The notes under the pieces are model-generated. The model made no database searches. It saw only the letters and a list, made by a program, of their open reading frames with translations, and was not told the DNA's origin. A stretch of 16,769 nt of DNA from positions 1 to 16,769 of the forward strand of contig BBXU01002952.1 of assembly GCA_001598975.1 (NCBI GenBank), in the 5' to 3' direction. Origin of the DNA: Parachlorella kessleri. Its lineage: Eukaryota > Chlorophyta > Trebouxiophyceae > Chlorellales > Chlorellaceae. This document shows, in pieces, positions 29 to 16,052 of the stretch. The translations under genes and the position numbers were made by a program. Each line of letters starts with the position of its first letter. Positions within the stretch are counted from its first letter, which is position 1.

Positions 29-91
29 GTGCTGGGATGGCCTTAGGACTGGAGCACAAGAGGTGGCTCCAAGCCCACTTGGCTCCTTCTT
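29..91 (+). pseudogene. Ghost copy of the exon that starts at 146
   Basis: Bases 43-90 align without a gap to 167-214, offset 124. Translated, LGLEHKRWLQAHLAPS matches the real LDLECKMWLKLRLAPL at 9 of 16 residues. The frame is open here and starts with an ATG at 37. It sits in the intron upstream of the first visible exon. Confidence 0.75.
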
Positions 92-145
92 CACACATGC
101 TCCCTTCTACATGGTCCCCCGCATCTGATCCCCTGCTACCCGCAG

Positions 146-3100
146 GTCCCGGTGCTGGTATCCGACCTGGATCTGGAGTGCAAGATGTGGCTCAAGCTGC
201 GCCTGGCGCCTCTGCCCCCCTACATCGGCGCCGTCAGCCTGGGCTTCCTCAGCCCCCCCATGATCAAGGTCCAGCTCAGCCCCTATGGGAAGGTCCAGCT
301 GATGCGCATCCCAATCATACAGGCAAGTTCATGTGGCCGTGGTTGGTGGGAACAAGGCCGGTTGTGCGGCTTAGTGGGTGGGAACAAGGCCGGTTGTGCG
401 GCTTGGTTGGTGGGAACAAGGCCGCTTGTGCGGCTTGGTTGGTGGGAACAAGGCCAGTTGTGCGGCTTAGTTGGTGGGAACCAGGCTGGTTGTGGTGTCG
501 AGCCGCAGAGTTTGCGATGCACATTCAGGGATGCTACCAGCGGGGACCGGTTGAATGCTGCGTGGCTCCGCGCTTTGCTCTTGAGGGTCAGGGTTTACTT
601 GTGAACTGTAGCGTAGTCACATCATGAGTCTCAGATACCACTCACGGTCACAGGCTTGCGCTGACCGGCCCTGCATCGGACTCCTCACCACTGCTGGGCG
701 CGTTCGGAACTCTCTGCACAGCCCTAAACTGTTTTTGTCATGCTTGCTATGTCTGGCACCTGTACCTGTCGTGAACGAACCTCCAGTGCCCTTCCATTAC
801 TCAATTCTAGGGTTAGGTTTAGGGTTGTTTACCTGAGGCCTTCGCTCCTGCAGTTCTCAAAACTTCCTGTGCTGCCTCCTTCCCAGCTAGAAGCCTCCCG
901 TGCCACCTCCACCGCGTCGTTGTACATTTGAAGGTTGAGTGTGCCTTACACCGCCCGTCTCCGCCTGTGCAGGCCTTCCTGCGCAAGTTCTTCACCGTGC
1001 AGCTGCCGGGCCTGATCGTGCTGCCCAAGCGCCTGGACATCAACATTCCCCCCTCCACCACCGCGGTGGCCGAGGCGGCGATCGGCCGCGACGCGGTCAT
1101 GCGCGCAGTGGCCTCCGCCGTGCTGCAGGTGTGCGCTACGCTGTGTTGTGCTGTGCTGTGCTCTGATGTGGCTTGTGTGGTGCCTTCCAGCGGAAGGCTG
1201 CCTTGGCAAGAGAGGCGGGCTGAAGCTCCTCCCTGTGCCGTGTGCCGTGTACTGCTGGATCCCTGTTTCTGTTGGTGTGCTTCTGGCCCTGGGGCGTCAC
1301 TGCACCACTGTTTGTTGTGCTGTTGTCTGGCGGCCCACTCTGCCATGGACGCTATTATGGCACCTGCTCATTAGGCACAGGGCTCAAGGGCGCGCTCCCC
1401 TGCAGCTTGCATGGACGCTCACGCAGCTCTTCAGTTCCTCCCAAAGCAAGAGGCAGACAGGCACGGACCCTACACATCCAGAATATCCCCTAGGCTCACG
1501 CGAGTCTTTGCTTGGCTGGTTGTTTCCATGGCAGGCGGACGCGCTGGAGCATGCTCTGATGGCTGCGCTTCCCTTAGGCCCCCAGGGCGCGGCTGGAGGC
1601 GTGTCCCTGCCAGAGTCCTTCCGAGGGGAGCTTTCGGTAGGTCATAAGCTGTCGCCGGGGGAGGGGAGGGGGAGGAGGGGTGTTGGCATGGCTTGGTTGC
1701 CTTGTGGAGGTTTGGTCAGTGGGGCCGGGTGGCTTCTGATGCAGTTTTTCCAATCCCAACGCTCGCCCCAGAATCACGGCTGCCTTGGGGACTCTAGTGT
1801 GCTGGCTCTTAGCTCTTGTGTCACACTGACATTGTTCTGCTTAGCTGTCTCTTAATCTCTATCACCTCTAGGTGACCCTCCCGGGGGGGACAAGTCTGTG
1901 TGTTTGGGGCTGTGCATATAGCCATGGTTAGTGAACACTTTATTCTGCCATCAAGCCTGGAGTATCCTAAGGACCAAAGCAGCAAAACTCTTTTCCTTGC
2001 CATTCAACCCCTGACCGTCCTGCCCCTTCTGCCACATGTCGCTGGGCTAACCAGGCCGCGCAAAGCATGCGCGACGTGGGTGCTACGCCTGCTGTGCCCT
2101 GCTTGCTGCAGGTGACCCTCCATGAGGCTAAGGAGCTGCCCGTCTGGGGCTTCCCCTGGCAGTCCAACCCCTACTGCCGCATGTCGCTGGGCAACCAGGC
2201 CGTGCAAAGCAGGCGTGACGTGGACACCAGCCACAAGGGCCGCCACCGGGAGCCGGTGTGGAACCAGGAGTTCCAGTTCCTTGTGGAGGACCCGGCCACA
2301 CAGGTGGGGTGGGGTGGGGTCTAAATGGGTGGGAGGGAAGTGGGCTTAGGGAGGGTGCGAGTCAGCAGTGCGGCAGGAGGAGGGGTGCATGACACCGTGA
2401 GGATGGGTGCGTGACACTGTGAGGAATGCTGCCTTGGTTGGAACGCAATATGTCTTCCCAGGGCAACATGATAGCCGGCGTGTGGCGATGCTCTGCTGAG
2501 CAGCCCACCGACCTAGCGCACATAGCATGCACGCAAGCACAAGCGGCTCACTACTGCTCCTGCCCCTTTGCCCACGCCTGCAGTCTCCGGTGGTGAGGTT
2601 GACGACTAACTCATGACTATGGAGAATCCAGTTGGTCACATAAGCATCATCCCCCCCTCCCCGTCTTGCTTCCCCGCACTTCTGCAGACGCTGGGTTGGT
2701 AAGGTTGATGACTAACTCATGACCGATGTAGAACGATGTGATCACTGGAGTAATCCCCCTCCACCCCCCTTTTGCTTCCCCGCTATGCAGACGCTGGAGA
2801 TCTGGGTGCGTGACTCTCCCGTGACCGGCCGGCGCGAGGTGGGCTACGCGACCTTCCCGCTGCGCACCCTACCCCAGGAGGGCACCCTGGACTTGTGGCT
2901 GCCAGTGGAGAGTAGCATGCCAGGTAGGTAGATCAACAACAGAAATTATGGCCAAAGAGGGTGCCGAGGGTGGAGGGGAGGCGGCCGTGCGTGGCATTGC
3001 ATGATTACCACCTGTACAGGACAGCATGCCCAGCAGGGGGTGCCTGCCGAGGCGATAGTGTGCCAGGGTGGCGGTAGTGTTTTGGCGCCCACTGATGACA

Positions 3101-6100
3101 TGAGATCCCGGACAGATTTCCCGCAGGAGTGTGGAATCCCTGCGGGCAGGCTTGACAAGTGCATGTCCTGTCCTGTGTGACTTGCCATCTATACGTAGCT
3201 GTCAGAGAGATTGCCACTTGTCAGCCTGCCGGTCAGCCCCACGGGTTTAGCCCCTCAGCCACAGGCCTTATGTGTGGGGCGTCTCCCCTGAGTCAACTGG
3301 CATTGTTGGGAAGCCGTTGTGTTGCGTAGGCCAGCCCCAACCAGGGCACGACCCCCCCGGACCCCAGCCACAAATTCTCCAATGGTGTGTCATGCCGTGA
3401 GTCACCTGACGGGAGGTCAAATTGCTGCTCACCCCCCGCAGGCGATCCCAACCAGGGCATGATCCACCTGGGCCTCAGCTACAAGTCCTTTGCGGACGAC
3501 GAGGGAGACTCCGGCTACCGCGAGGCCCAGGCCTTTGCCAAGATTATGCAGGAGCAGGCGCAGGTAGGCGGACGGGCAGGCAGCGTCGCGACGTGGTGGC
3601 GTGATGTCAGGGTTGGCTTGGGTTGGTTGGCCGGGGGTGGGTGGGTGCTTCTGATGGCATGTGATGGTCTGGGGCCCCTGGCAAGGTTCTGAGGAGCAGA
3701 TGGTGCAGGTTTCCAGTGTGCCATGCGATACCCTCGTACCGTGCACCGGCAGGTTTGGGACTGGTTTAGGGTGTGCGAGTGCTGATGGGGGAGCAGGGCT
3801 GTGGCGCTAATGTTGGCCTCCAAGATGTAGGGGGTGCATCAGAAGCACGCCTGTGTGTCTTCAGTGCCTGCAGGCTTCTTCTACATAGGTTTGTCTCCAT
3901 GATCATGGAAAGTGCTATCCAACCAGCCCTACCGTCTGCAACCTTGTATCTTAGAGTCGCCATTCTGCCCTACCATGTGCAGGGTATTGTGGATGTCAAG
4001 AGCGCCGCGGATGCGTCCTCGCGCGCGGCGGTTGCCGCCTCTGCTGCCGCCACCGCCGTGGCGGTCACCAAGGCCGCAGCAGCCCGGGCCGCCACCCGAC
4101 TGGCAAAGACGGCGTCCCGTGGCAGGCGGGCGTCAGGCAGTGATGGGGAGGGCAGCGAGGGATCTGCAGCATCAGGATCAGATAGCGAAGGATCAGATTC
4201 TGATTCCAACGGATCTAATGGCAGCAGCCAGCCGCCCGCAGCGTCCTCGGACTCGGAGGGCACACAGGCAGCTGCTGCCAAGGAGGGTTCCAAGGGGGCT
4301 AGTGGCAGCGGCAGCAAGGATGGCGAGGGGCAAGGTACTGCCAGCGGGACCAACGGTGCCACAAACGGCACCCCTGCCATGGGTGGTGTGGACCTGGGGA
4401 CCCTTGCCAAGGCCATCACGCAGACCCTGGAGAAGGCGACCCTGGAGGAGCAGCAGCAGCTGGACAGGAAGCGAGCAGCAGAGGGCAACGGCAACGGCAG
4501 CGGCAGCGGCAAGGAGGCGTCGTCAGGCGCGGGGGCAGGGGCAGGCGTGGGGGCGGACGCTGGCAGGGACGGTGACGCCAATGGCGCCGGGCCGAAGGCA
4601 GAGACTGACTCTGCTGCGCTGGCGAGGCTGCAGGTTTGTGTGACTGGGAGGCCGTGAGGGGGTGTTGGTGCCCTGGCTGGTTTAGTCATGTGCATAGGCG
4701 CTTGTTGGGCTGTGAGGTTACACCAAGGGGTGCGCTCAGTAAGTGGCAAGTGGGGCTTGCAGTACAGTCTTGGACGGCTGTCTGCATGCATGGTCATGAC
4801 GTGCTGGCAGTAAGTTTGACTGTCAAAGAGCTGTAGCCTGTGGCCTTGCCGTGGGCTCTACAGCATCACTTGCCATTCCTTCCCAAAGGAGAATCGCTTG
4901 TGGAGAGGGTTGTGCTCTGGGGCAGGGATTTTTCCCGTTTTTTTTGTGGTTGGAAGGAGCCTCGGGTGATAAGAAGCAGCTCCAAACTGAGTGCTTTGAA
5001 GGAGATCACCAGCGCTATGCACGACATGAAGCTGGAGGTGGACCAGCTGGTCTACACGCCCAAGCGCCACAAGATCCACGACGGACGGCTTCCGCCGGAA
5101 GAAGCTGCAGCAGGCGCAGCGGCCGAGCCGCCGCCCAACCCCTCCGAGCTCTTCAAGGCTGCCTCGGAAATTGCTGGTGGGCGGCCTGCTCGGATGGCTG
5201 CCGAGACTCTGCTTGGAAGGGTTTGACGGTGCCGGGTCAAGGCTTCCAAGGCTGACTGAGAAATCTGCAGGAGGCCCGCTTGCTCCCTCTCAACTGTGTT
5301 TCTGGTTCTTAGTGGCCCTGACCTTATTGTTTCCAACCAGGTACAGCATTGCCTGCTCCCATCGGAGTGCCGTCCCTGCTCTTCTCCAATCATCCAAAGC
5401 AGCTCTCCTCCCGGCTGTGCTGCCATTTGCTGATGAACCTACCGTTGTGTGGTCCCTATCTGCAGAGAGCGCAGTGGCGGTGGCCGGCGCCGCGGCAGTG
5501 GCTGCCGCTCCAGCGGTGGACGACCTCGCGGCGGTGCCGAGCGGCACCGACGTGCGCGCGGTGGGCGCGGGCGTCGCGCCGCGGCAGAAGTGGGACCCTG
5601 ACGCGGAGCCGGCCTCCGAAGAGGAGCGTGAGAAGTACAAGGTGGAGAAGATGGAGAAGGCAGTGAAGAAGGCAGTGGATGCCAAGGCCACAGAGGCCGC
5701 TCAGAAGGTCACTGCCCTAGAGTTGGGCGCGGGACTCGACGAGGTGGAAGGGGAGGCAGTGGCGGTGGTGGCGCAGCGGCCGGACGGCTGGCGGCAGCGG
5801 CTGGCCGCCTGGGGCGCCGGGCTGAACAGCGGCGGCAAGAGCACAAAGACCAAGGGCAGGGGCCAGGCCGACGACAAGAAGGCCAAAAAAGCAGAGGAGA
5901 AGGCGAGGGACAAGGCGGTGGCGGATGCCGCGGCGCAGGAGGCAGTGGCGGGGCTGCCCGAGCCCATCGGTGAGTGGCTGGCTGGGATAGTCCACGCAGC
6001 GAGGAGGTCCCTGAAGGACTTTCCAGTTGTTGGCGGCGTGTGTTTAAAGGGTGTAGGGCCAGGCAGGGCAGCTGCCTCCTATGGCATGTGGGTGCGCCAG

Positions 6101-6972
6101 TGTAGTGACATGGCCTCTCTGAAGCGCTGCGCGGCAGGAACTGGGTTCGAGTAGATTCCCCACTCCCAAACCTTGTGTGCACTCTGTACAAATATAATTT
6201 TTGATTGGGGCATGGCAGTTGGTGGGATCAAGGCTCGTTCGGCGCCCACTGTGCGCCGTCCTGGCCGTGACAATGCGGGGCTGCGGGGCCTTTGCCAGAC
6301 TGGCGCCTGTTAGGTGATGTGCTCAGTTCTTTGCTTGTCCTGGCCCATACACCCGCTCCACTTCGTCTGTGTTTGCAGCTGCTGTGGAGCTTGCAGACGG
6401 CCCTGATGGCCCTGTCAGCAATGTGGTGTTGCCGCCCGACTTGCCGCTGGATGTGATCGCGGAGGAGGTGCAGCGAGGCTGGAAGAACAAGGAGGTGCAT
6501 GTGGAAGGCCTGCTCAAGAAGGTAGGTGCTGTCGTGGATAGGCGAGTCGAGCTGGGGTGGGTCATGGGGCGAGCTGTGGTGGTGGAGGAAGGGCAGCATC
6601 CCTGTGAGAACAGGGAGGTGTGTGGTGTGGGCTGTGGAGGCAGCTGTCAGCCACAGTAGCAATGTCTCCCGTTTCGCCCCAGGGTTGGTGCGTGCAGTTC
6701 GGGCTGGTGGTCCCGCCTACGCGTCATATGCCTTGCTGCCCAGGGAGGCGGGGTGGAAGGAGCGTTGAACCACTAGTGCTGGCGGGCGGTGCGGGCGATT
6801 TCATTGTGGGAAGTATGTACAGTGAAGTCCCACTCTGGCTGCGTGCCTGCAGGCAATGGAGGAGCGACAGAAAGAGGGAGAAGGGCGCTGGCTGGTGGTG
6901 CTTACCGTCACGTCGGGAGCCTGTGCGGTGCTGCTGTCCATCGTTCTGTATCGCATGATGCACATGCAGTAA
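146..6972 (+). CDS. SMP and C2 domain lipid-binding membrane protein, 5' partial
   Basis: Exons by eye: 146-322, 973-1128, 1535-1636, 2112-2303, 2791-2923, 3442-3563, 3983-4633, 5002-5176 (possibly from 4957), 5466-5969, 6379-6521, 6853-6972; all phases agree and give 824 residues to the TAA. Residues 1-140 read as an SMP lipid-transfer domain (LKLRLAPLPPYIG, FTVQLPGLIVLPKRLDI). Residues about 142-265 form one C2 domain (GELSVTLHEAKELP, SNPYCRMSLGNQ, EPVWNQEFQF, LEIWVRD). Residues 295-511 are Ala-rich then acidic Ser/Asp/Gly linker, followed by Lys/Glu/Ala coiled-coil stretches. Residues about 798-821 are a hydrophobic segment ending in RMMHMQ, so the tail is probably membrane-inserted. Plant NTMC2/synaptotagmin and extended synaptotagmin proteins share SMP-C2 order and tether ER to other membranes; the exact subtype is inference. 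The usual N-terminal anchor would lie upstream of the window. The first intron of the list uses a GC donor. The start of the exon near 5002 is uncertain. Confidence 0.82.
323..328 (+). other. GC-type 5' splice donor (CAG|GCAAGT)
   Basis: The SMP reading frame needs a phase 0 cut after CAG at 322 to join GCC at 973 (IPIIQ|AFLRKFF). No GT in the right phase is present; GCAAGT is the classic GC donor sequence. The next possible GT (at 329) would break the frame. Confidence 0.75.
342..497 (+). repeat. 32-bp minisatellite, five copies
   Basis: GGTGGGAACAAGGCCGGTTG and a following TGCGGCTTGGTT recur with exact 32-bp spacing (AAC at 351, 383, 415, 447, 479). The last copy is the most diverged. It lies just after a GC splice donor in the intron 323-972. 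Confidence 0.92.
808..826 (+). repeat. Short plant-type telomere-like tract
   Basis: TAGGGTTAGGTTTAGGGTT contains about two and a half degenerate TTTAGGG units inside the intron 323-972. It is too short to be a telomere; it could be an interstitial scar or a telo-box-like element. Confidence 0.5.
836..919 (+). pseudogene. Ghost copy of the exon that starts at 973
   Basis: AGGCCTTC at 836 equals the acceptor plus exon start at 971. Further matches are AGTTCT, GTGCTGCC and CCACCTCCACCGCG, with small gaps. The ghost keeps the pattern KLP..VLPP..LEA....TSTA against QLPGLIVLPKRLDI....STTA in the exon. Confidence 0.62.
1345..1405 (+). pseudogene. Ghost copy of the exon that starts at 1535
   Basis: Bases 1351-1382 (GCTATTATGGCACC... 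TTAGGCACAGGG) align with 1553-1586 (GCTCTGATGGCTGC... TTAGGCCCCCAGGG). Translation gives DAIMAPAH then a stop, then AQG, against HALMAALPLGPQG in the exon. Short and diverged. Confidence 0.5.
1657..1680 (+). repeat. G-rich tract, G-quadruplex type
   Basis: Four G runs of 4-5 separated by one to four bases lie 20 bp past the donor at 1637. A second, looser G-rich run follows the donor at 2304. Both are on the transcribed sense strand. Confidence 0.6.
1870..2079 (+). pseudogene. Ghost copy of the C2 exon that starts at 2112, interrupted
   Basis: TAGGTGACCCTCC at 1868 repeats the acceptor and start of the real exon (CAGGTGACCCTCC at 2109). Bases 2036-2079 match 2181-2223 in 40 of 44 columns: three substitutions and one inserted T that creates a TAA stop and a frameshift. 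About 100 extra bases separate the two matching blocks compared with the real exon. Confidence 0.88.
2596..2697 (+). repeat. Tandem duplicate of an intron end including its 3' splice site
   Basis: AGGTTGACGACTAACTCATGAC at 2596 recurs as AGGTTGATGACTAACTCATGAC at 2703. Both copies go on through a C-rich tract and TTGCTTCCCCGC to an acceptor followed by ACGCTGG. The second acceptor (exon start 2791) is used by the gene; the first (TTCTGCAG ending 2687) is a decoy whose exon part diverges after seven bases. Confidence 0.85.
3329..3378 (+). pseudogene. Ghost copy of the exon that starts at 3442
   Basis: Bases 3331-3377 align without gaps to 3442-3488, offset 111, at 34 of 47 positions. The core CCCAACCAGGGCA is identical, and an AG precedes the ghost just as it does the exon. 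Confidence 0.8.
3815..3850 (+). pseudogene. Ghost copy of the exon that starts at 3983
   Basis: The twelve codons here read GLQDVGGASEAR against GIVDVKSAADAS at the exon start, with five identities plus L/I and E/D pairs, offset 168. The frame is open from here through the real acceptor. DNA identity is low. Confidence 0.5.
4783..4812 (+). pseudogene. Ghost copy of the exon near 5002
   Basis: GCATGCATGGTCATGACGTG then CTGG at 4784-4806 aligns with CTATGCACGACATGAAG then CTGG at 5014-5034, with small gaps. Both read ...MH.. at the start. Short match, so moderate support. Confidence 0.42.
5363..5440 (+). pseudogene. Ghost copy of the exon that starts at 5466
   Basis: Translated, RSAVPALLQSSKAALLPAV recalls the real ESAVAVAGAAAVAAAPAV, offset about 102. 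Much of the similarity is alanine, so chance or composition is possible, but SAV and PAV fall at matching distances. Confidence 0.5.
6211..6285 (+). pseudogene. Ghost copy of the exon that starts at 6379
   Basis: GGCAGTTGGTGGGA at 6214 parallels TGCAGCTGCTGTGGA at the real acceptor (6374), and GTGACAATGCGGGGCTGCGG near 6267 parallels GTCAGCAATGTGGTGTTGCC near 6415. The copy preserves an AG at the acceptor position. Confidence 0.55.
6745..6797 (+). pseudogene. Ghost copy of the last exon of the SMP/C2 gene (starts 6853)
   Basis: GAGGCGGGGTGGAAGGAGCG parallels CAGGCAATGGAGGAGCG at the exon start, and GCTGGCGGGCGGTGCGGGCG at 6778 parallels GCTGGCTGGTGGTGCTTACCG in the exon. Offset about 106; AG kept before the copy. 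Confidence 0.55.
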
Positions 6973-8078
6973 GCCTGCCTACATTCTTCGGCAAGCCCTT
7001 TGGGGCCGCCGGCCGTACTGACTGACAGAGGCGCTTTTGGAAGTAGGTGTTGGTGTCAGCAGTGTCTGGTGTCAGCAGTGCTGGCACAGGGATGCAGCTG
7101 ATATTGGCTGTTGAAGGAACCGACGATATGGATCCTATGTCCAGGACAGCAGTGGGAGGGTTTTGGCGCATGCTCGACCCCAGTGTCTGGTGCTGAACTG
7201 CGATCTTATGGCGTGCCCAATCAAAGGCGGCCTCTTGTGCTGCTCCTCATCAGGCGTTCTTATTTTCTTCTTTTCAAACATGCCTATGGCGTTGCGGTAG
7301 TGGGTGCAACCGTTTCCGGCATTGAAATACACCTTCCTTGCCCTCCTTATGGGGCGCTCGTCTTGTATTGTAGGGTTATCTGCATATATTCTGATGCTGC
7401 CCAGGCAAACTGCCTGAACTTTATGATGCTGGGTGTGCAGCCACTGCCTTTGGCTTTCAGGGGGATCTTTAGTGAGCTTTGCGGGGTAGAGCAGTCACGG
7501 TGTAGGTCGTACATCATGTGTTGATCACAAGCTGTAGCCATGCCAGTCGAATGTGTATCCATTATGCCTTATGGTGGGGCAAGTCCAATTTATGCTCTGT
7601 GGGCAATGCAGCATCTGCTATGGCAGGGCAGTTAGTCATCAGCAACGTAATTTGCATGCCTGATTTGCCTGCAGGTCCCGTCAGGGCTTGTCATTAATAT
7701 TTTTCCTGGAACACAGAGAATTGTGGGTCAGCCTGGACGGCACAACCTGCACGTCGTACCGTTTAGGGACCGTCCTTGGACAGCTAACGTACGTAGCCCC
7801 TTCTGCAGTCCATCAACTGCCTGGTTTTTGATCAGTGCCGCAACGCTATGTGACGAGATTGGCTGTCAAACGCGAGCAAAGTGGACTCTCTGCAGGTATC
7901 TTTCAGTGGTTGCAACAACATCAGAAACCAAGCACATGGCTCGCTTGACATCGGATATCATTAGCTTGTACTCCACACCTGGGGCACAGGAGCAGTTTTT
8001 CGTGAGGGCCAGGCTGATGCCACATATTGCACGTTGTGTAGGGTGGCCACCCCAGCAGCACCTCAGGTCTGCGGCGCT
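6973..8078. other. Spacer between the SMP/C2 gene and the USP gene
   Basis: Lower GC than the coding exons. It should hold the 3' UTR of the first gene and promoter and 5' UTR of the second. I found no TGTAA signal and no open frame with coding character; the longer open frames lack family resemblance. A 14-bp direct repeat, TGGTGTCAGCAGTG, occurs at 7051 and 7067. An acceptor-like CCTGCAG near 7675 could belong to a 5' UTR intron. Confidence 0.5.
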
Positions 8079-11000
8079 ATGGGTGTGAGCAAGAAGGAGC
8101 GGAAAGATGCTAGGAAGGACAAGGTGGCGAAACAGCTGGAGCAAGTGGGCTGGGAGCTATGGCTACCCTGGAATCTGCACAAGCGACCTCCCAAGCTTGC
8201 CAAGGAGGACGCAGAGAGGGTGTGGGAACACTGGAGGCAGTTGTCCCGCGCCGCGCAGGAGTGCTGGGCTCCCGTGCAACGCCTCCTGTGCTGGGCAGCA
8301 GGAACCCAAGTTGGCGCCTGCCTGGTGTGGCTGGTGCAGCTGCTAGCAGTAGCCCTGGTTACCTGCTACTGCAGCGCGGCGCGCATGTCAAGGGATGGGT
8401 ACGCTGGTGAGGCGCCAGTTGCTTAGCCCAGATTTTGCTTGCCGTGCGAGCAGCGCATGCTGTCCATTCAAGCAGCAGAATTTCAGCCAGTGTTCATGCT
8501 GATGCAAATTTTCATGCGAACTGCCAGTCCCTCCTTGTCCTATAGGAGCTTCAACGCGTCCGCCTGCAACAGCAATGGCCTGTTACCGGCTCGAGTGCAT
8601 GCTGGTCTGCTGGGCGTCTGACCCTTACATTCTGTGGGATGCTTCGCAGCGTTGAAAGCAAGGTGGCTGGCGGGAGAGGCTGGCTCGCCGGCCCGCAAGA
8701 AGGCTGAGCAGCAAGCACGAGAAGCCAGAAGGAGGCAGGAGCTGGAGCAGCGCCAGGAAGAACTAAATATGCTGCTACAGCTGCAGAGGCAGACTAGTGT
8801 GGACAGCAGCCCTGCAGCTGGCGGCAGCTCGAGGGTAAGCAGCAGCGGCAGCAGTAAACCTAGACCCAGCAAGACTGCACAGCCTGCCGGGCGCAAGCAG
8901 CAGTTGGCCGGCTTGCGCAGGTTGTCCAGCGGAGCTAGTGGAAGCGAAAGGAGCGAGGAGCAGAAGCAGGAACATGGGAGGCGGCGGCAGCAGCAACATC
9001 AAGGCAATGGAGCCGCTCTGGAGGCCTCTGACAGCGAATCTGACTGCACGCCTGACCTGGCTGCAGCGGGCTATGCGGCAATGCTCGCCGCACTGCAGCG
9101 AGATGCAGCAGGTACCCTGGCACCAGCAGGGGTAGAGGTGGCCTCAGCAACTTTGCCAAACGAGGTTCTTGAGCTGGGTGATAGTGGCTGCGAATTTCCT
9201 GAGCTGGGAACAGCCACAGTAGGTCAGCCCCAGCCAGTACCAAAGCGGCAGGAGCAGGAGCAACAGCACCAGAATGTGGAGGCGGAGGCGGAGCAGCAGC
9301 AGCAGCTGGGCGAGCCAGTTGTGAGGGCTCAGGCGCCTGGCCTGGAGTCTGGACCCAGCCTGCCGCCCGACCAGAACGCAATAGCGGCGCACAGGGACGC
9401 AGGTACCGCTAGCAGGCAGGCTGACAACCAGGTCAGGGGCCAGGACAGCATGCTACACCAGGAGCCGCAACCAGAAACAAGCCCTTTTGCGGAGCAGCAG
9501 CAGCAGCAGGGAGGCATAGTGGAGGTGCTGCGAAGTAATGAAGTCAGCAGTGTGCGGGCAGAGCAGGAGCCCGTGCTATCAAAGAAAATGGATGCAATTT
9601 CAGCTGCAGCTGCAGCTGCGAAGCAATCCAAGGCTAGCACCTCCGAGTCAGATGGTGCGGCCCTGGATCGAGTCGCACAGCCTGGGTCACAAAGGAGCCC
9701 AGGTTCTGTCATAGGTGAGAACGGGGCAGCAGCGACAGCCGGCGACACAGAGCACCTGGCCAGTATTGCATCAGCAGCAGGGGTGCCCTCACAGCAGCCA
9801 CGCAGGCCGCGGCATCAACAGCATGGGCCGCAGCAAGCCGCGCTGGATGTTTGGGACACATGCAGCCAGCTGTCACATGGCAGGCTCAGGGAGCGTGGGC
9901 AGGCAAGGCGCAAGCCGCCTGCGCCACCACTGGCGCCTGGCGGCATACCAGCGGCAGCAGCAGCTGCCATAGCAGCTGCTCAGCGGGCCCTGCAGCCAGG
10001 AGGCAGCCTGGCAGCTGGGGAGAACTCTCAGCGGCAGCCAGCACCGTCGAACGCCCTGCGCGTCACGGGCGGCAAGCAAGACTCGTGGCACCAAGCGCAG
10101 CAGCAGGACCAAAAGCAGCAACAGCAGCAGCAGCAGGTGCAAGACTATCACCAGCGGCAGCAGACGGACTGGCAATGGCAGCAGCTGCAGCGGGATGAGG
10201 GGCAGGTGGCGGGAGAGGGCCGAGGTAGGAAGCTGCGACCGCAGCCAAGATCGTCGTCTGTCTCAAACTGCTTACCTCCAGTACCACCGTCTGACGTCCA
10301 AATCTCACAGGGCTGGTCTGGCGCAAGCTCTCCCAACATTGATCCATCGGAGCCCGCAGCGGCGGCAGCGCCGCCTGGCCGCAGTCCCAGCCTTGTGACC
10401 CTTGATAGCGGCAAGGTGCGGGAAGGGCAGCATGACCTCCAAGGTGGTGTGCAGATCCCAGCTGCCCTGCGGCTGCTATCCGGAGAGCAAGCTGAGCTTG
10501 AACAGCGGCCACAAGAACCGCCCTCGCTGGTGCAGCAGCAGGGCGCGCCTCCCTACCTACGCTCCTTGTCCCAGCAACAGCAACAGAGTCCTGCAGGGCA
10601 GCAGCATGTGCAGCTACACCGGCAGCCTGAGAGCAATGGGCACAGGCAGGAGGTGCTCACAGCCTTCTCCGGCCTCTCCAATGAGACCGGAGAGTACAAT
10701 TGTTTCCTCAACGCAATCGTCCAGTGCCTATTCTTCTGCCGTGACTTCCGGTGTGAGGTGAGCTGAGGCCTGGCAAGCACACTCATGGCAGTTGCACTCC
10801 CTTGCGTCCATGGACTTGGTATCCGAAGGGATATTGAACTACAGCTTACGTGGGCCTCCTCAAGTCGCACTACTTGTTCAGCACAAGGCGGCTGGCGTGA
10901 CTGGCATACATGCAACTGGGTGGTCTTGTGTAGAGGGTCCAGGCAGTGTGCCCGCATGTGCCTCCATTTCGACTATCCGAGAGTCTCGCCCCTCGAAGCT

Positions 11001-14000
11001 TCATCCCCCATACCCCTCCTACCCAGCAGTACAATTGTAATAAACATACCCCACTTGCCTTTCGGCTTTTTCTGCAGGTGTCTGCCTGGCCTCCCTTCCT
11101 GCACGACTATAATGCTGTCCTGCGCGCTGTGCATGGCGTGTTTTCAGCCCTCGAAGCTGTCAATGAAAGGGCAGCAGCTGATGGCAGCATGGCCAACGGC
11201 CAGCATAGCGCAGCAGGCAGCGCTCATAGCGTGGTCAGTGCTAACGCTCTGCGAGAGGCGCTGTCAGCATTGCCAGGCCAGCTCTTCAAGGCTGGTGAGC
11301 ATAGTAATACACTGGTTCTGTCGATGGGAGTTTTTTTGCGCGGGTTGCTGAATGGTGCTGCTGAAGCTTCTGTGAGAAATACCAAGGTTTTGTCATGTGA
11401 TTTGCCTGGAAGCCTTCCTACATTGAGCAAGTGGCCGCTGCGAGTAGCACTGTGAGGTCAGCCAGGACGTTGAAACACGAAGGGTGAATGCCCCCACTAC
11501 AAACTACCCCGCTCCTTTACCCTTTATGGCTCCAACAGGAGTGGCTCCCACAAACAGCGGACAGCTGGGTTATGCTTCTGCTGCAGGCGAGATGAATGAT
11601 GCCAGCGAGGTTCTGATCACCATATATGACCAGATCAACAAGGGGGTGGCAGCAGGGCTGGCTTTTAGCCTCACTCTAGATGTGGACCTTGATGCGCTGG
11701 TGGGTGCACTATACAGTCATGGCAGGTGGTGCACCACTACCTTGTGATGTAAGCGCTTTGCTGCCCAGCTTAAAGAGCTTGCGTGGAGCCTGGGGCGCAC
11801 TTGATAAGTGATTTCATAAGTCTGCATCGGTTGGCAGTCAGGCTCACACTTAACATGCAGATTGGGACGCTGAATGGGTGCCTTGCTGGCTGGCTGGGGA
11901 AGCCAACCTCCGGGAATACTGCTGTGGGCTGCTGGCTAGCCAATATGATGTGTGCTGAGCCTGGGACGATTTGTCAAGCGTGGATGCACCACAATGTGCG
12001 TGGGAAGAACGCACCGCTCTTATGGGTCTGTGACTGCTGGCTGACGGTTGTAAGCTGTCTACAATATGGCCCCTGTGGCTCGTTGTGCTGCAGCTGGCCT
12101 AAGCACATACAGATGGGGGCTTGGCACCTGTGGATTGTTTGCAACCTACCGCCTGGCTGGGGTCCTGCATTACCAACTTGGCTTGTAGCTGCCTGGCCGC
12201 TGCGGGTTGCAGGTTGGACTGGATGTGCGGGAGTATGTGCACTGCCCTGCATGCCAGCTGACCACCCATGCCACCCGCTACACCCAGTACATCTACAACA
12301 CTCAGGCAAGGCGATGAGTGTGTGCCAGGCTGAGTGGGCTGCCTGACTTGCCTTAATGGCTTGCTAGCCCCAGCGGCGCAGAGATGGTCCTGGGGACTAC
12401 TCACAGCACACTTAGCAGGCGCGGTGCACGCTAGTTTACGCCCAGATCAGTGAAGTACATGACAAGGCTAGCCAGTATGCTAGCACTGGCTTCAGGCTGA
12501 CTGCTCCCGCCGCTCCCCCACTGATGTGCCAGGCTCGGCTTGTCGTCCATGCCAAACCAGTGGGACCTGCAATGACCGCCCTGTGCACTTGACTGCTCTG
12601 CAGGCCACCGGCATCCGAGACATGTGGCGGGCGCATGGAGGTGCCGGCAGCCTGGGGCAGCTGCTGCGGCTGATAGCCGAGGAGACTCGCAAGTCATGCG
12701 ACCCAGACGAAGGTAGGTCGAAGCAGGTTCCAATGGAGGAGGTAGAAACAGGGAAGTTCACTGAGCAGTGTGGGGGCTTTCTGCTGCGGGGGATCAAAAA
12801 CAGGAAACCTCCAGCTCAGAGCGAGAGTCCAGGCACGGCTGGGGCATCTTGGACTGTGCGTGACAGAGAAGAGACCAGCGAAGCTTGTGCATGATTAGTC
12901 TGTGTGAGTACTCTGTTGGTATTTGACACCAGGTGTCAAATAACGAGTTCAAGGTTGGCTTTGTGAGACCCGCGCTGCCTGCACAGGTGGCTGGTAGCAC
13001 AGAGGCTGCCACAAGTGACTTGCATGTTATGCTCCAGCTTTTCTATACAAACGCAGGTACCCTCGCTTTAACCCCGCTTTCTCCTGGATCTATCGCTGAC
13101 AGCCTGGCTGCCATTCATGCACGCCCCGGATGATGATCGTGAGCCCCACGGGATCCCTCCTGTGTCGCTTGGTATCTCTCAATCAAATGCACCTTTGTGC
13201 AGGTGGCTGCAACGCGCGGCTGCCGCCAGTGCACGCACTGGATCCCAGCCGCGCCCCCCGCATCTTCACGCTCCAGTTGGCCTGGGAGAGCCAGCGAGAG
13301 GAGGCGGGTGATATCGCAGCCACCCTGGATGCGGTGACGGAGGTGGTGAGTTGCCGCTGCTGTGGCCTACTTGCCACCTCCCTCCCTGGTTTCTCTTTGA
13401 GTTGTGGCAGCTGCTGTGGACGTCTTCCCTTCCCTACCTTTGCAACTGTGGCTGCCTGGGGTTGGTGGTCCAGAATGCTGGCAAGACAACATGGTGCCCT
13501 TGCAGCCGCTGCTATGCTGCATGTGCAAGCCGTCAATCAAGCAAATCACTAGTCATAAGGCTGCCACTTTTTTCGCTCTCCCCATGGCTGCGTGAGCTCT
13601 CCCCTCTCCCCTTGGCACGCCCGATGCCTCTCCTGTGTGTAGGCCCGGGACCCAGCATCCTGTACAGCTTCCAGGCGTGTTTAAAGACGATATATGTTGC
13701 ACTTTTCCTCCCATGGCTGACCCCAGGTGGACCTAGCGGAGGTCTTCAGTGGCCTGCCCCACGGCAAGCACTTGTACCGCCTGCGCAGCCTGGTGTGCTA
13801 CTACGGCGCCCACTACTTTGCGTACGTGCTGCTGCCGGATCTGCAAGCCTGGGCCAAGATAGACGACACGCACGTCAGCAGGGTGGGGTCCTGCGCGGAC
13901 GTGAAGCGCAAGTGTGCGGCCGGCAGGGTGCAGCCCTCTGTTCTATTCTTCGAGGCGCTGCCCAGCAATCCCTCAGAGGCTTGGGCGGAGCACCACAAGC

Positions 14001-14011
14001 AGGATGCGTAG
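8079..14011 (+). CDS. USP-family ubiquitin hydrolase (peptidase C19), plant UBP-related type, Gln-rich N-terminus
   Basis: Exons by eye: 8079-8406, 8650-10757, 11078-11294, 11587-11699, 12213-12305, 12604-12712, 13203-13345, 13727-14011; phases agree and give 1131 residues. The Cys box is GLSNETGEYNCFLNAIVQ with Cys794 (codon 10701). The block with EMNDASEVLITIYD follows. Two cysteine pairs, C933/C936 and C985/C992, fit a USP zinc finger. The His box is YYGAHYFAYV with His1066 (codon 13811), and WAKIDD supplies Asp1083/1084. The GEYNCFLN and NDASEVL forms recall Arabidopsis UBP-related proteins that carry DUF627/DUF629 (from memory). Here those domains are not seen; instead there is a basic start, a hydrophobic segment at residues about 69-98, a coiled coil (about 120-155) and about 600 residues rich in Gln, Ala, Ser and Pro. 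Likely role: cleaving ubiquitin from substrates, activity unproven. The ATG at 8079 has G at -3 and +4; an upstream noncoding exon is possible. The 11699/12213 junction is the weakest, and the 12305 donor is GC. Confidence 0.8.
8700..10660 (+). repeat. CAG/glutamine-rich low-complexity coding region
   Basis: Inside the large USP exon, CAG and GCA runs are frequent, with Gln runs of four to seven (for example around 9286-9306, 9496-9510 and 10108-10136) and Ala runs. No ordered domain is visible here apart from the coiled coil at its start. Such tracts are common in chlorophyte nuclear proteins and likely to vary in length. Confidence 0.8.
10943..10982 (+). pseudogene. Ghost copy of the USP exon that starts at 11078
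   Basis: GCAGTGTGCCC...CCTCCATTTCGACTAT aligns with GCAGGTGTCTGCC...CCTCCCTTCCTGCACGACTAT. Translation keeps CLHFDY against FLHDY. Offset about 132, AG kept. Confidence 0.55.
11341..11375 (+). pseudogene. Ghost copy of the USP exon that starts at 11587
   Basis: TGAATGGTGCTGCTGAAGC then TTCTG aligns with TGAATGATGCCAGCGAGG then TTCTG, offset 244. In protein terms LNGAAEAS stands against MNDASEVL, the conserved NDASEVL block of this family. A run of seven T precedes the copy where the pyrimidine tract should be, but the AG is lost. Confidence 0.65.
12306..12311 (+). other. GC-type 5' splice donor (CAG|GCAAGG)
   Basis: Phase 0 joining of CAG at 12305 to GCC at 12604 gives YIYNTQ|ATGIRDMW. Between the GTAC at 12288 and the in-frame TGA just after 12311 there is no GT, so a GC donor is the simplest reading. 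Using the GTAC instead would remove six residues. Confidence 0.6.
12920..12942. repeat. Perfect 11-bp inverted repeat with one-base centre
   Basis: TATTTGACACC at 12920-12930 is followed by A at 12931 and the exact reverse complement at 12932-12942. It lies in the intron 12713-13202, 40 bp upstream of a ghost acceptor. Confidence 0.9.
12981..13045 (+). pseudogene. Ghost copy of the USP exon that starts at 13203
   Basis: GCACAGGTGGCTGG at 12981 repeats TGCAGGTGGCTGC at 13198, and ATGCTCCAGCTTTTCTA repeats ACGCTCCAGTTGGCCTG, with an internal deletion. If spliced in, the frame meets TAG at once, so it is not an exon of this gene. Confidence 0.6.
13408..13437 (+). pseudogene. Ghost copy of the last USP exon (starts 13727)
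   Basis: GTGGACGTCTTCCCTTCCCTACC matches GTGGACCTAGCGGAGGTCTTCAGTGGCCTGCC after removal of nine bases. Translation gives VDVFPSLP against VDLAEVFSGLP. Offset about 311. Confidence 0.48.
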
Positions 14012-14935: not shown

Positions 14936-16052
14936 ATGTCATCAGGAGGAGGCCATGACGCAGAGACCACACCCGCCTCAGCAGCGGCCAAGGACTACGG
15001 CTATGGTGGCAGAAGTGCAGTGGGTCAGTACAACAGTTCCTGGTGCAGGTTGCCTGTTCAAAGTGTACTCCCTTCCAGCTGGGGGAGTCCCCACTTCCCT
15101 GTCTGATGCTGCTACTTGCCGGGTGGAGACGCTCTCCAGTGGTGTGCTCAGAGAGCCTGGGGCTCTCCCACAACTCAGCACTCAAGTATGATATCGCTTT
15201 GCAGGCGGGGCAGGCGGCAGTGACTTGAGTTGGGGCGGGTCGACGGGAGGCGTAAAAGACATCACTGGGGGCAAGACAGGGGGCTTCTCAGATATCATGG
15301 GTGAGACCACGACCTCTGCTTGGGTTGCTACCAGCCATTCCTTGCAGCATGCCTAGCAGCCAGTGCTTTTGCTCTCCGCAGTTCGGTGGACTTCTGGACG
15401 AGCCTCCCAAACAAAGACTTGGGTTGTGCAGGTGGCAAGACCGGTGGCTTCGGGGACCTTATGGGCGGCGACACAGGGGGCTTCAAGGACATCACAGGTG
15501 TGCACGCACTGGCTGATTACAAATACGCAGGTGCAGCAATGCGCGCTCTACAAGCATGTCACAATGCGCTTGGTCAATCTGCAACAACAGTGCAGCACAG
15601 CGTGGAGGGGCGCGGCAGTGAAGTGAGGCGTATCCAAGCTTTCCCTGCTCTGTGCATGCTGCTGTTCTAAACCCTTGCCGTGCTGTGCTTTACCTCTCCT
15701 TGGACAACTTCCCTGCTGGCTTCGATTTTTTAAGCCGCTTGCGTAAGAAACTGCTTGCTGGGCTCCTTCTCTCTGTTCCGCAGTCAGGGTTGCGGAGGGC
15801 CCTACCATCATCATCTCCTTCCCCTTCATGCATGTCATGCTGCGCTCCATGCTGTGCTCAGGTGGCGGGGCTGGGGGTCTCCGGGACCTGACAGGCGGCG
15901 AGACGGGGGGCCTCAGCGACATCCGCGACCATGGAGGCGTGACGGGGGGCCTGGGGGACCTCACTGGTGGGGAAGTGGGCGGACTGGATGACATACAGGG
16001 TGGCCGGGTGGGCGGTATGCGGGACATTGGACCAGACAGTAGCAGCCGGTGA
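14936..16052 (+). CDS. Small protein of tandem 11-residue Gly/Asp repeats, function unknown
   Basis: Four exons, 14936-15023, 15205-15300, 15432-15497 and 15862-16052, all joined in phase 1, give 146 residues. The start MSSGGGHDAETTPAS has A at -3 and no hydrophobic signal. From about residue 30 the protein is a run of about ten 11-residue units of the form (T/A/V)GG-x-x-D-(I/L)-x-GG-x, for example TGGFSDIMGGK, TGGFGDLMGGD, TGGLGDLTGGE and VGGLDDIQGGR; one unit near the middle is 13 long. It ends PDSSSR. No cysteine, and no predicted membrane segment. I do not recognise the family. GG-x-x-D recalls calcium-binding RTX nonapeptides only loosely, and 11-mers recall LEA proteins only by length, so neither is claimed. 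The regular frame, intact splice phases and a TGTAA signal 250 bp downstream support a real gene. Confidence 0.72.

Follow-up and report, generated by a model that had tools for sequence, protein, structure and literature searches.

Duplications that span an exon edge and its neighbouring intron have been described before. In a potato RdRp gene, the passages of PMC4974935 available to us describe a tandem duplication that extends from the 3' part of an intron into the 5' part of the following exon, and the excerpts of PMC3443670 count tandem genomic duplication among the accepted origins of introns. According to the excerpted part of PMC3887541, tandem repeats in Chlamydomonas and Volvox have their highest density in introns, where it rises towards the intron ends. 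Here, we analyse a window of 16,769 nucleotides, one whole contig (BBXU01002952.1) of the green alga Parachlorella kessleri. A first-pass annotation had described decayed copies of the start of the next exon ('ghost exons') in introns of two of its genes, SMP/C2 and USP. This observation is partly confirmed: it is real for four introns of one gene and was much overstated. We put at roughly 0.85 the probability that each real copy is what remains of a local tandem duplication of its own, covering an exon edge, with a spacing of about 100–150 bp.

The source assembly has 50.9 Mb in 1642 contigs. In our rebuilt models, the SMP/C2 gene runs from 146 to 6972 in 11 exons, its first visible intron (i0) being the one in which the contig begins, and the USP gene has 8 exons (8079 to 14011). 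Each model splices to a single open frame. Two introns have GC instead of GT donors, at 322-323 (gcaagt) and 12305-12306 (gcaagg). The models provide 18 introns for testing, 11 in SMP/C2 (including i0, which is cut by the contig end) and 7 in USP. Each was compared by local alignment with the first 100 nucleotides of its downstream exon, and 17 were also compared with the last 100 nucleotides of the upstream exon. The null consisted of 500 dinucleotide shuffles under each of three DNA scorings, for which p=0.002 is the floor, and of 200 shuffles for a protein comparison.

In 3 of the 18 introns (i0, i3, and i5), downstream-start copies scored above the shuffled sequences under each of the three DNA scorings (p=0.002). 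A fourth copy, in intron 4, was found as a tandem duplication by BLAST self-comparison. Such copies are held by 4 of the 11 SMP/C2 introns, where all 11 had been claimed, and by none of the seven USP introns, where the claim was at least four. These copies, with the single donor-side copy of the window, are as follows.

29..87, + strand: start of SMP exon 1 in decayed form, copied from about 152-211, from local alignment with shuffles
1870..1881, + strand: 12 bases identical to the junction of intron 3 and exon 4 (2110-2121), seen by eye
2008..2079, + strand: decayed copy of exon 4 bases 2153-2223, 86% identity, E 4.3e-17
2578..2694, + strand: first tandem duplication unit, the end of intron 4 plus 7 nucleotides of exon 5, from self-comparison
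2682..2797, + strand: second tandem duplication unit, with the true exon 5 acceptor, from self-comparison
3336..3373, + strand: decayed exon 6 start, copied from 3447-3484, 31/38 identical, E 0.002
6575..6625, + strand: donor-side copy of the 3' part of exon 10 (6452-6504), inside intron 10, from the intron-versus-exon test

The copy at 29-87 had been read at the protein level (as 43-90) and is confirmed by both comparisons (z 6.4 to 8.5, p=0.002 in the three DNA scorings, protein p 0.005), with 9 substitutions and 5 indels over 56 aligned bases. The copy of exon 4 reaches z values up to 25.6 and carries a stop and a frameshift; its alignment ended at 2067 in the shuffle test and at 2079 in the others. 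The match at 1870-1881 is probably the first part of the same copy and was seen by eye only, being recovered neither by BLAST nor by the local alignments. The exon 6 copy has 7 substitutions and no indel (p=0.002 in three scorings). The two units of intron 4 are 75% identical (E 1.15e-11). By eye (2593-2790), each starts with GTGAGG or GTAAGG, contains CTAAC, ends with TGCAG, and resembles a complete intron of about 95 nucleotides. This duplication was not detected by the intron-versus-exon test alone, whose sole match in intron 4 had p 0.018 in one scoring, at 2404-2418. The three copies proposed at the DNA level (2036-2079, 2596-2697, and 3329-3378) stand as 2008-2079, 2578-2694, and 3336-3373, the second being a real duplication that includes just 7 nucleotides of exon 5.

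The same-strand copies lie 104, 111, and 145 bp from their partners in the BLAST matches, and about 123 bp for 29-87. The splice junction falls inside the strict match for the intron 4 duplication. For 29-87, 2008-2079, and 3336-3373, the strict match begins 6, 41, and 5 nucleotides within the exon, and a lenient alignment reaches across the junction for the first and the last of these. The 11 remaining coordinates of the first-pass annotation (836, 1345, 3815, 4783, 5363, 6211, 6745, 10943, 11341, 12981, and 13408) were not consistently above shuffled introns in the three DNA scorings and the protein comparison. The nearest cases were SMP i2 (protein p 0.045, but p≥0.34 in every DNA scoring), SMP i1 (p 0.122 in one scoring, at 838-922), USP i2 (p 0.016 in one of three scorings, at 10990-11003), and USP i6 (p 0.042 in one scoring and protein p 0.055, at 13093-13174 and not at 12981).

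The copies had been thought to lie on one side only, with no exon ends repeated after donors. Intron 10 contradicts this. It repeats a 3' segment of exon 10 that stops 17 nucleotides short of the donor; each DNA scoring gives p=0.002, with z between 4.0 and 7.0, the protein comparison gives p 0.015, and the BLAST E value is only 0.24. The upstream-end test was also passed by intron 6 in two of three scorings (p 0.008 and 0.006; third 0.267), by intron 8 in one (p 0.028), by USP intron 2 in one (p 0.042), and by USP intron 6 in two (p 0.030 and 0.012). In the control run, upstream exon ends matched in 4/17 window introns at p<0.05, equal to downstream starts.

We extended the test to twenty-five 10-kb stretches of the same genome (26 sequences and 267 kb with the window). 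Genes were predicted with a small self-trained finder, which learned first from the window genes and afterwards from its own output. This conservative finder gave 20 genes with 80 introns, of which 77 were tested and 3 fell outside 40-3000 bases; gene labels outside the window are its predictions. For downstream starts, the mean z was 0.04 (standard error of the mean 0.14), with 3/77 introns at p<0.05 and 2/77 at p<0.01. For upstream ends, it was 0.75 (standard error 0.27), with 9/77 and 6/77, respectively. Control exons gave some matches at p<0.05 as well, both in the window and in a first sample in which 58 of 60 introns were used: 0/17 and 2/58 for reversed exon starts, 0/17 and 2/58 for reverse-complemented exons, and 1/17 and 4/58 for exons of other genes. 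A few such matches are therefore expected by chance. Copies of the next exon's start are not a general feature of this genome, and the excess that exists falls on the donor side, which had been thought empty.

Outside the window, four duplications cover an exon edge of a predicted gene.

L013, 8121-8202 / 8237-8318: donor-side duplication in a gene with a hemerythrin domain
L026, 891-951 / 789-849, minus-strand gene: donor-side duplication in a Sas10/Utp3 gene
L026, 1439-1480 / 1249-1290, minus-strand gene: second donor-side duplication in the Sas10/Utp3 gene
L015, 171-188 / 278-295, minus strand: acceptor-side duplication in an RNase H2 subunit gene

Overall, 5 exon-edge copies are on the acceptor side and 4 on the donor side (binomial p 1.0): 4 and 1 in the window, 1 and 3 outside it. 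The splice junction lies within the strict match in 4 of these 9, two per side (intron 4 and L015 for acceptors, L013 8121-8202 and L026 891-951 for donors). These counts bear on the idea of a general one-sided system, in which a duplicated 3' splice-site module acts as a decoy or recursive site. Four acceptor-side copies in one gene, two of which keep a usable-looking AG, speak for it. Universality fails in the window (4/18 introns, none of the seven in USP) and across the 77 other introns with their mean z of 0.04, and donor-side copies are equally frequent. As a general feature, such a system is refuted by the intron sample and has practically no chance of being correct.

Comparing the 267 kb with itself yielded 29 near direct repeats, at offsets of 40-1000, against 1 near inverted repeat; several of the matches share one array, so there are fewer events than matches. 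This large excess of direct over inverted repeats shows local tandem duplication to be the background process. Fifteen of the 29 have a spacing of 80-129 bp, and 4 of the 23 outside the window touch a predicted exon. One stretch (L020) is rich in near direct repeats, with eight matches (for example at 6225-6488), and another (L010) has a 399-bp direct duplication with 85% identity (24-420 and 510-900), 486 bp apart.

An AG at the acceptor position had been reported for most copies. By eye it is there in the four real ones, if one lost base is accepted for 29-87. By splice-site score, the AGs at 2687 (4.5; true site 3.7) and 3329 (2.2; true site 3.4) look usable, and those at 1871 (-0.2) and 23 (-3.2) do not; a score of 6.9 given for position 24 was discarded as an artefact because no AG stands there. 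We found no recursive splice site, that is, a strong acceptor joined as AG|GT: by eye, AG|GT occurs only at 1870-1873, with the score of -0.2, and the acceptors at 2687 and 3329 are followed by AC and GC. Apart from the one intact acceptor at 2687, nothing supports the proposed use as decoy or recursive sites. This acceptor might compete with the true site and give an unproductive transcript that tunes the gene: it scores higher and leads to TAA after four codons. However, some AG outscores the true acceptor in 4 of the 11 SMP introns, including i2, i6, and i7, which have no real copy. The score at 2687 is therefore not special, and we regard a regulatory use of this site as improbable.

Differences between four of the copies and their exons number 7, 22, and 8 at codon positions 1, 2, and 3. 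There is no excess at third positions, and the copies thus show no coding constraint. They might alternatively be decayed or alternative duplicated exons of the mutually exclusive type, or derive from a mobile, introner-like element. In animals, exons are commonly duplicated in tandem, with intronic copies that have escaped annotation, according to the excerpts of PMC9013439, and each unit of intron 4 resembles a small intron. Yet the copies are partial and broken, and none has a whole exon with an open frame and both splice sites. Genome searches that used the intron 3, 4, and 5 stretches as queries (1-145 was not searched) listed exon 4 itself but no other site, at a sensitivity that also missed the known 38-bp partner at 3447-3484, so that short or diverged copies could escape. 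Matches were confined to the window within this limited sensitivity, whereas an introner or transposon would leave similar copies at many sites. Both origins seem very unlikely. A paralogue as the source of the copies was rejected: the SMP/C2 protein matches six exons on its own contig and, with its C2-like part, one weak place elsewhere (37 bits).

Relatives of the SMP/C2 protein bear on the age of the introns. This protein has a C2 domain (58.3 bits) and a match to SMP_MUG190-like (27.3 bits, under its cut-off of 35). Among the best 7999 candidates scored, its top relative with an organism name is P0013 of Haematococcus lacustris (69% identity over 41% of the query). Five relatives predicted without splicing (P0026, P0029, P0030, P0032, and P0036) turn unrelated, by eye, at the junctions of introns 0, 1, 3, and 4. 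These introns thus appear to be shared and to predate the copies; P0036, by eye, seems to lack intron 2. This matters for the possibility that the introns were gained by tandem duplication of exon sequence (the AGGT model), which predicts an intron with a copy of the next exon's start. Relatives apparently have introns 0, 1, 3, and 4 at the same positions, and the copies sit towards the 3' ends of long introns rather than beside the donor. We consider such gains highly improbable. Equally remote is an assembly artefact that placed two alleles or repeat units in series: the assembly is fragmented into its 1642 contigs, but the copies diverge by 13 to 25% or more from the exons. Their stops, frameshifts, and nonsynonymous changes also do not resemble what alleles of a conserved gene would show.

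Separate local tandem duplications thus remain the best explanation. A duplication over an intron end and the start of the next exon would leave the protein unchanged if the downstream acceptor is the one used, and the upstream copy would become intron. A duplication over an exon end and the start of the intron would likewise be silent if the first donor is used. Both kinds would be tolerated since the extra copy is spliced out, and the copies, presumably without effect, would lose their coding sense and fade neutrally; duplications within exons would mostly be removed by selection. Slippage or template switching may have produced the copies, and the splice site probably lay in the duplicated segment even for those that now start 5 to 41 nucleotides inside the exon. 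Of the recurrent duplication of a 3' splice-site module first proposed, the local tandem duplication is supported for four copies, and the universal, one-sided module is not.

Several observations weigh against this explanation. The window has six near direct repeats where 1.54 are expected (P 0.005), and one gene holds four acceptor-side copies. We regard this clustering as mild because the window was picked for it, for which no correction was made, and because two of the six repeats are one minisatellite; one more lies in a third gene. Outside the window, the genes are predicted from sequence alone. Finally, differences favour second codon positions in the four copies counted above (22/37) and also when three further copies, including those of L013 and L026, are added (28/55, p 0.009). 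Plain neutral decay does not predict this excess, and base composition gives no clear explanation.

A broader reading is that a tandem-duplicating process with a spacing of about 100 bp is unusually active in this algal lineage, that the exon edges at long-conserved introns are a recurrent site of it, and that duplicates like the acceptor at 2687 might in some cases serve temporarily as alternative sites. It is speculative and rather unlikely, and is hinted at by repeats in P0013 and P0026, relatives of the same gene. Exact repeats of 8 or more residues occur in 3 of 56 relatives (P0013, P0026, and its near-twin P0027). In P0013, a run of 17 residues occurs twice at the beginning of SMP exon 1, the place copied at 29-87 in the window. 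In P0026, which occurs in several sequence sources, the end of exon 4 is repeated on the donor side with a spacing of 34 residues (102 nucleotides), and by eye a third copy can be read in another frame. These repeats are known from protein only, and may reflect errors of assembly or annotation.

Other features of the window are the following. The USP product belongs to the UCH family (70.7 bits). Intron 1 of the SMP/C2 gene has a minisatellite, without exon part, and a short telomere-like stretch, ggttaggtttagggtt, at 811-828 (by eye). The third gene seems to encode a repeated glycine-rich motif, and has two alike 65-bp stretches (15429-15493 and 15859-15923, 75% identity).

340..494, + strand: minisatellite inside intron 1, 64-bp step, 91% identity

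A striking claim on ghost exons is thus replaced by an ordinary, measured one: short tandem duplications are frequent in this genome, and leave traces at both exon edges. These traces can lead gene finders and readers astray, and at the same time are a record of duplication and decay in introns. Among the matches listed in our literature search, no title concerned copies of exon starts in every intron. The assertion that no described system resembles this one does not hold, because the potato RdRp case, as given in the available passages of PMC4974935, shares its geometry, with intron 4 as the clearest match. There, part of the upstream copy was kept as exon, a new intron arose, and transcripts support it, whereas the algal copies appear wholly intronic and decayed. 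Internal gene duplications, as reported in the citing passages of PMC4974935 and PMC3443670, are similar in being frequent, including across exon–intron structure; that work focuses on the creation of introns, whereas the algal copies seem to lie in old ones. Tandem and mutually exclusive exons (excerpts of PMC9013439) also place exon-like sequence in a neighbouring intron, but they can be spliced in, while the algal copies are partial and that of exon 4 is broken. The survey of PMC3887541, in its excerpted part, concerns tandem-repeat motifs of which the frequent ones are short, in contrast with the single duplications of about 40–120 bp found here. Compared with these systems, the algal copies are ordinary in kind, neither universal nor one-sided.
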